A DNA stretch of 64,000 nt, taken from the NCBI GenBank assembly GCA_015063845.1, contig SVTJ01000009.1, positions 1 to 64,000 on the forward strand. The letters run 5' to 3'. The notes under the pieces are model-generated. The model made no database searches and was not told where the DNA came from. It saw only the letters and a list, made by a program, of their open reading frames with translations. The position numbers were made by a program, and so were the translations under genes. This document shows positions 10,196-62,073 of this stretch, piece after piece; positions within the stretch are counted from its first letter, which is position 1; the number at the start of each line of letters is the position of its first letter. The DNA is from Oscillospiraceae bacterium (GTDB taxonomy: Bacteria > Bacillota > Clostridia > Oscillospirales > CAG-272).

Positions 10196-10402
10196 AAATT
10201 AGGATTTGTCGGTGTGTTCACACAGCACCCATAAGCCTCCCTCCGAGAGGGAGGGGGACCACGAAGTGGTGGAAGGAGCTGGCGTGCATACGGAGGTAAG
10301 ATATAACGCTATTGTACACGAGCTCTCCCTCAGTCTCGCATTCGCTCGACAGCTCCCTCCGCAGGGAGCCTTTGTTGCAATGCGATGCCATTTGTGCACT
10401 TT
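10196..10402. repeat. Dispersed palindromic repeat with element-type terminus
   Basis: AAATTAGGATTTGTCGGTGTGTTCACACAGCACCC terminus, then CTCCCTCCGAGAGGGAGG...AGCTCCCTCCGCAGGGAGCC inverted blocks. Confidence 0.6.
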
Positions 10403-10845
10403 CAAATTAGGATTTATAGATGTGTTCGCACAGCACCTATTTTTAAAAGTTTTAGTCAAGTTTTTTCAAAAACTTGCGGGGTCAAGGGGCGGCGTCCATT
10501 GTCGCTCGTCGCAACGAGCGAAACACCTTGCGGTGAGAAGGAGGTCTGGAGGGAACCTCCAGGCGCGCGTCGCAACGCGCGAAATCCCATATCGTTACGT
10601 AAAGTAACTTTGTGTTAACAAGGGGTCCGCTGCCTGCGGGCAGCGCTGGGAGGTCCCTAAACGTTTCGCTTTGCGAAACCTTACGGTTGAGCTTGCTCAA
10701 CCATAGACCCACCGTGACCGTGAGGGTGTTCCGACGCTTGCGAGCGTCGGCAAGCCTACGCGGCTTGTGCGCGAAAACTTTTGAAAAAGTTTTATCAAAA
10801 CTTTTAAGCGGGGTGCTTGCGAACTCCCAGACAAATCCTAATTTG
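10403..10845 (-). mobile_element. Non-coding ITR-bounded hairpin-cassette element, copy 1 (MITE-like)
   Basis: Reverse complement aligns over full length to 61627-62073; termini CAAATTAGGATTT.../...AAATCCTAATTTG; multiple perfect internal hairpins. Confidence 0.75.
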
Positions 10846-52468: not shown

Positions 52469-52591
52469 ATCTCCAAATTAGGATTTGTTTTCAAAAAACT
52501 CATTTATTTTTTCTAAGCTCTTGAAAAGAAAAAAGATTAGTTGTATAATATAATATGTTATTATGTATATGTATCACACGCGAGGTGAATT

Positions 52592-61626: not shown

Positions 61627-62073
61627 AAATTAGGATTTATCGGTGTGTTCGCACAGCACCCATTATTGAAAGTTTTGATAAAACTTTTTCAAAAGTTTTC
61701 GCGCTCAAGCCGCGTAGGCTTGTCGCTCGTCGCAACGAGCGAAACACCCTCACGGTCACGGTGGGTCTATGGTTGAGCAAGCTCAACCGTAAGGTTTCGC
61801 AAAGCGAAACGTTTAGGGACCTCCCAGCCGCTCTCCGCAGAGAGCGGAACACCCCTTATTAACACAAAGTTACTTTATGCTACAATAGGGGATTTCGCTG
61901 CCTGCGGGCAGCGCTCGGGGGTTCCCCCCGAACTCCCTTCTCAGCGTAAGGAGTTCCGCTCTCTGCGGAGAGCGGCAATGGGCGCCGCCCCTTGACCCCG
62001 CAAGTTTTTGAAAAAACTTGACTAAAACTTTTAAGAGGGGTGCTGTGCGAACACACCGATAAATCCTAATTTG
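61627..62073 (+). mobile_element. Non-coding ITR-bounded hairpin-cassette element, copy 2 (MITE-like)
   Basis: ITR AAATTAGGATTTATCGGTGTGTTCGCACAGCACCC / GGGTGCTGTGCGAACACACCGATAAATCCTAATTT (perfect inverted match); aligns to reverse complement of 10403-10845. Confidence 0.8.

Follow-up and report, generated by a model that had tools for sequence, protein, structure and literature searches.

The window, a stretch of 64,000 nucleotides at the start of a contig from an Oscillospiraceae bacterium (SVTJ01000009.1), contains two full copies of a hairpin-rich element. Copy 2 occupies positions 61627-62072, with exact ends that were read directly from the sequence, and copy 1 lies inverted relative to it at 10404-10844 on the minus strand, as seen by direct reading and by BLAST match. 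Copy 2 is bounded by a left terminal inverted repeat (ITR) of 35 bp, AAATTAGGATTTATCGGTGTGTTCGCACAGCACCC (61627-61661, plus strand), and by its perfect inverse on the right (62038-62072, minus strand). Both were located by an ITR search, for which shuffled sequences gave a chance expectation of zero matches. Several small hairpins occupy the interior of copy 2, and five of these, termed slots, were delimited by comparison of the two copies: slot 1, TCGCTCGT-CGCA-ACGAGCGA (61723-61742); slot 2, CCGCTCTC-CGCA-GAGAGCGG (61828-61847); slot 3, CGCTGCC-TGCG-GGCAGCG (61896-61913); slot 4, TCGGGGG-TTC-CCCCCGA (61915-61931); and slot 5, CCGCTCTC-TGCG-GAGAGCGG (61956-61975). An inner insert with two further hairpins (GGTTGAGC/GCTCAACC and GTTTCGC/GCGAAAC) lies at approximately 61769-61818, and direct reading places the AT-rich dyad centre, which includes AAAGTTACTTT, at 61848-61895.

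As CGCA is the reverse complement of TGCG, the slots of the left half are those of the right half seen from the other strand, and each arm therefore holds three hairpins in the order B-A-C, which form a module of about 83 nt that faces outward. A covariance model located the left-arm module of copy 2 at 61668-61748 (minus strand, 82.7 bits), with slot 1 as its hairpin B, and the right-arm module at 61950-62032 (plus strand, 98.1 bits), with slot 5 as its hairpin B. Hairpin B of the core module has the form TT-YCGNNNNY-TGCG-RNNNNCGR, hairpin A has a loop of 3-5 nt and hairpin C resembles CAAGCTTTT-TGAA-AAAAGCTTG, followed by ANCAAAACTTT. The same model placed the modules of copy 1 at 10725-10805 in the left arm (plus strand; B is CCGACGCT, 10731-10750) and at 10445-10527 in the right arm (minus strand; B is TCGCTCGT, 10502-10521). 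Direct reading gave slots 2, 3 and 4 of copy 1 as CGCTGCC-CGCA-GGCAGCG (10628-10645), CGCGCGT-TGCG-ACGCGCG (10564-10581) and CTGGAGG-TTC-CCTCCAG (10546-10562).

The original prediction described a near-identical scaffold interrupted by slots in which both copies carry perfect hairpins of different sequence around conserved loops. This description proved accurate, as 317 of 347 ungapped scaffold positions (91%) and all 19 loop positions are identical between the copies, while only 41 of 76 stem bases agree and all five pairs of different perfect hairpins are present as written. Folding of the whole element as a single strand yielded -250 kcal/mol (z = -21 against shuffled sequences). Greater divergence of stems than of scaffold holds for this pair of copies but not as a general rule: pooled stem and scaffold identities were 0.81 and 0.86 in the genome that contains the window (G000), 0.83 and 0.75 in G016, and 0.81 and 0.84 in G027, so that faster evolution of stems than of scaffold was rejected as a general rule.

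Copies in the genome and among relatives

The element had been regarded as present in two copies, which is incorrect. In its own genome, a draft of 1.88 Mb in 21 contigs, the element matched 116 pieces by BLAST, and about 15 related hairpin elements could be recognized, three of them near full length. The covariance model, which was built from near-perfect hairpin seeds and whose lower-scoring matches in G089 show the same pattern, detected 30 matches in this genome. Matches were obtained in 21 of 30 genomes of the genus (59 in G026 and 32 in G016) and in 16 of 292 sampled genomes of the class, with 68 in G356 and the highest number per genome, 143, in G089. The core module is thus also found in other Oscillospiraceae-type clostridia outside the genus. 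A 23-nt pattern of one B word matched many Oscillospiraceae, Ruminococcus and related gut MAGs as well as the isolate Pseudoruminococcus massiliensis, which indicates that the word CCGCTCTC or TCGCTCTC is common to genomes well beyond the genus. Phage and plasmid collections, and viral contigs searched by pattern, gave no match to the element. In Rfam no match reached the gathering score, and the weak matches at E<=1 were far below it.

Copy numbers vary widely from genome to genome. The MAGs are fragmented, with repeats frequently at contig ends, and G026, which holds near-identical copies, has five contigs (C3, C32, C36, C40 and C80; L195-L197, L355, L356) that end beside such copies. The family therefore breaks assemblies made from short reads, and its true copy numbers are probably higher than those counted. 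Relative to neighbouring genes, 18 copies are placed antisense, 11 sense, 10 between convergent and 9 between divergent genes, with no clear strand preference. Some copies have decayed and carry single uncompensated stem mutations. Neither placement, nor the varying copy number, nor the decaying copies indicate a host function. In G081 and G356, which represent one family of the order (L098, L103, L124, L386-L405), the module mostly occurs singly, not as an inverted pair, and a different conserved block of hairpins (CACTCGCTCTTCTCAG-AAGAGAGTT) lies upstream of it.

Ends, target sites and possible mobility

The element shares with miniature inverted-repeat transposable elements (MITEs) its terminal inverted repeats and its short, non-coding, multi-copy and scattered nature. 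Other short elements of the same genome have identical ends but quite different interiors, and the ITR was found at dozens of element ends. At positions 10197-10404 of the window and elsewhere (L046-L050, L361-L374), the ITR AAATTAGGATTTRTCGGTGTGTTCGC bounds other short element types with unrelated interiors, namely a CCTCCCTCCGAGAGGGAGG type of about 208 bp, a GGGCGATT hairpin type, a GGGTCGTCGAGGACGACGACCC type and a GGCTTGCGAGTG type, some of which are joined end to end in chains. At 52475-52489 of the window, a solitary ITR end (AAATTAGGATTTGTT) directly follows a terminator-like hairpin; no element lies behind this end, which is possibly a remnant.

No target-site duplication was recognized, as the listed flanks showed no direct duplication outside AAATTAGG...CCTAATTT. 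When the flanks of three element sites were queried across the genus, no clean empty site was obtained at the nucleotide level. Only the site downstream of rplL gave an informative counterpart, which was occupied, and at the C4 site the alignments of several relatives run through the insertion point without a break at 64-71% identity; these relatives look empty there but are too diverged to define the junction. Among the BLAST matches in the 21-contig draft, no pair of these ends resembled the termini of a longer element that carries a gene or transposase. A Y1 (IS200-like) transposase was considered as mobilizer; it is unsupported, as PF01797 had no match in G000 or in the copy-rich G026 and G027. 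Mobility is therefore deduced from copy number and scatter, and the element is best read as a mobile or formerly mobile palindromic repeat.

Strict pairing of the stems

Across 137 distinct modules, 96.9% of all pair cells contained standard pairs, and changes on both sides of a pair (719, compared to 190 in shuffles) far outnumbered changes on one side (18). Further copies of the element thus exist, and their stems do not vary in a random, non-compensatory manner. Long-stem inner hairpins in G016 (TTTCAAAAGC...GCTTTTGAAA and GGGGAACCCACATGAGGGGTTCCCC; L083, L088, L184-L186) likewise vary in matched pairs, with a GTAAC/GTTAC centre that recurs in other genomes. Such strong covariation would be expected if the modules were structured non-coding RNAs, transcribed outward from the centre and under selection for their fold, with compensatory changes as the result. 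UGCG is a member of the UNCG tetraloop series, and the TGCG loop could be read in this way. Copy 2 also contains a promoter-like sequence in its AT-rich centre, a putative sigma70-like site (TTAACA-16-TACAAT, 61859-61886). As this site is a consensus match only, promoter-driven RNA from the dyad centre was judged unsupported.

Selection for an RNA fold would make G-U pairs far more common than A-C pairs on one strand. Neither strand shows this: the 137 modules contain 20 G-U cells and 27 A-C cells, so that G-U is no more common than A-C. In a second set of modules from named genomes the counts were 14 and 12, where hairpin B is biased by the search word and hairpins A and C are unbiased. SRP RNA from 21 genomes of the same genus, used as a control, gave the opposite picture with 164 G-U and a single A-C cell, and with 51 one-sided as opposed to 18 two-sided changes. 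Module rows are not phylogenetically independent and their counts are descriptive; the argument therefore rests on the contrast with SRP RNA and on the within-genome linkage contrast described below. Together with the lack of a clear orientation bias and of an Rfam match at gathering level, these observations make a structured RNA very improbable and lend no support to selection for an RNA fold. The selection for folding that was part of the original prediction was not shown, given the scarcity of G-U wobble pairs and the single uncompensated stem mutations in some copies.

The same features can be accommodated by recognition of the hairpins as DNA. An enzyme would bind folded single-stranded or cruciform hairpins, and movement would be confined to copies whose stems are perfectly Watson-Crick paired and which carry a TGCG loop and basal CG pairs; selection at each round of mobilization, and not copying of one arm from the other, would keep the stems perfect while recombination shuffles them. 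The strict Watson-Crick pairing, equal on both strands, is in agreement with this proposal, as are the uncompensated mutations in decayed copies and the distribution of conservation, with variable stem middles between basal CG pairs and a loop that are both near-invariant (of 137 distinct rows, 120 have TGCG). No such enzyme was found, however, with the genome itself devoid of a Y1 transposase match, and the exact loop inversions reported below are not predicted by recognition alone. This proposal is considered possible but unlikely.

Linkage within and reassortment between hairpins

Linkage between positions was analyzed in G089 (40 modules) and G356 (20 modules). Partner bases in these two genomes, 5-21 nt apart, were in almost complete linkage (r2 0.73-1.0). 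In G089, partners within one hairpin, separated by 9-21 nt, gave r2 values of 0.73-1.0, whereas the median r2 for positions taken from two different hairpins, at separations of 6 nt or more, was 0.01 and thus near equilibrium. The corresponding values in G356 were 1.0 for partner bases and a median of 0.03 between hairpins. All four allele combinations were observed for B with A, B with C and A with C, and 39 modules of G089 comprised 22 distinct haplotypes. Within hairpin B of G356, the outermost pair (C-G or T-A) occurs with both inner forms. The hairpins are in effect cassettes: the alleles of neighbouring hairpins reassort between copies, while the arms of each hairpin stay Watson-Crick complements. 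Module shuffling or stem-level gene conversion, as originally proposed from two copies, is thereby strongly supported, and the genome-wide reassortment extends the cassette idea to two other families of the order.

One might attribute this pattern to ordinary repeats, with recent bursts from few source copies and RecA-type gene conversion among near-identical copies, in which hairpins play no special role. The near-identical copies in G026 fit such a scenario, and hairpin words are identical in 40% of within-genome pairs compared to 6% between genomes. An apparent scarcity of within-genome words one step apart disappeared once distinct words were tested against a null, and distinct words of one genome differ from each other by distances resembling those of random draws, also in line with ordinary repeats. 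Randomly placed ends of conversion tracts would nevertheless break stems, yet partner bases are linked and equally close non-partners are not. Stems at a site shared by two genomes (see below) are also heavily changed and still paired, and ordinary repeat dynamics are judged improbable. On a more far-reaching view, each hairpin would be exchanged as a genuine cassette, with either a replication-linked process or an enzyme dedicated to this task reading the TT-YCG foot and the TGCG loop and swapping whole hairpins between copies; the hairpin instead of the element would then be the unit of inheritance. We regard this as rather unlikely.

Rearrangement footprints

Several copies preserve traces of exchange in the form of chimeric, fused and loop-inverted hairpins, which lend further weight to the proposed shuffling. 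In the genome of the window, the inner two-hairpin insert is located in the other half and inverted at G000:C13:13852-14301, the outer arms are swapped on C18, where one B loop reads CGCA although the flanks predict TGCG, and on C2 a fusion of slots 3 and 5 has produced the hybrid hairpin CGCGCGT-TGCG-ACGAGCGA. One module (L442) is an arm-chimera with one arm from each C allele. In G027, a half-matched stem, TCGCCGCC/TCGTCGCC, coexists with both of its perfect derivatives. Two modules of the same genome (L176 and L183) are identical over the 83-bp module except for the A loop, which is changed from GCT to its exact reverse complement AGC, and the B loop of L034 is inverted to CGCA. Arm homogenization and exact spacer inversion, the marks of template switching, are thus present as footprints in L176/L183 and in L034.

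An element is present in both G000 and G018 at the same site downstream of a gene recognizable as rplL (ribosomal protein L7/L12). The B, A and C stems all differ between the two genomes, B and C are fully paired and the TGCG and TGAA loops are retained. These could also be two independent insertions.

A proposed template-switching model

These data are best explained, with a probability of roughly 0.6, by a MITE-like family of palindromes in which template switching copies hairpins from arm to arm and hairpins are reassorted between copies. The element is a non-coding interspersed palindrome with 35-bp inverted ends, two outward-facing three-hairpin modules and some inner hairpins, and would be spread by a putative mobilizing enzyme. 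Reassortment may result from ectopic recombination or template switching at short conserved words (TT-YCG, TGCG and TGAA). DNA polymerase would remove the resulting mismatches by using one arm as the template for its partner (quasi-palindrome template switching), a process that would also flip loops. Template switching homogenizes arms and inverts spacers (PMC8604942), and double compensatory changes are possible in a single event (PMC8794818). As copying of one arm onto the other would explain perfect stems, selection need not be invoked. Arm-to-arm linkage could equally be maintained by selection for pairing, and recurrent double changes could mimic the reassortment pattern. The near-invariant TGCG loop and basal CG pairs are left unexplained by neutral copying, which speaks against arm-copying alone and suggests that the folded hairpin is still recognized by something, probably as DNA. 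With regard to the original interpretation as a whole, shuffling or gene conversion is retained and selection for folding is not.

Compensatory changes in perfect hairpins commonly count as proof of a selected RNA structure. In the present family, apparently an abundant repeat of gut clostridia, covariation is very strong, wobble pairs are nearly absent and hairpins reassort one by one. The family offers a large natural data set for the question of whether template switching alone can create covariation signals, and it calls for caution when RNAs are predicted from covariation in genomes rich in repeats. The family is also an unusually clear natural record of DNA hairpins being kept perfect and exchanged.

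Comparison with known systems

No description of this element family was found in the open-access papers searched. Prokaryotic MITEs, as reviewed in PMC10969869 (a text without the terms 'hairpin', 'Clostridi-' or 'Ruminococc-'), are likewise short, non-coding and multi-copy with inverted ends, whereas no target duplication or parental insertion sequence was found for the element. REP/BIME palindromes with RAYT transposases (PMC2817692, PMC3733652) share the many short extragenic palindromes in alternating orientation; in contrast, the genome studied here has no Y1 transposase match, and neither a GTAG nor a CGTC tag was seen at the foot of the hairpins on sequence inspection. BOX elements of Streptococcus pneumoniae (PMC3049150) are also interspersed, intergenic, modular, highly folded and MITE-like, with variable combinations of modules. 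Compared by architecture only, BOX modularity lies in the number and order of boxA, boxB and boxC, while the element has a fixed order of hairpins with interchangeable stems and a conserved loop. The repetitive hairpin-forming elements of sponge mitochondria (PMC2800124) are mobile-looking intergenic hairpin repeats as well, but their stems are conserved and their loops vary, whereas here the loops are conserved and the stems vary in matched pairs. Quasi-palindrome template switching (PMC8794818, PMC8604942) shows the same arm homogenization, spacer inversion and apparent compensatory double changes. It is known from mutation events at scattered sites, whereas here identical footprints recur throughout a single repeat family with hundreds of copies.
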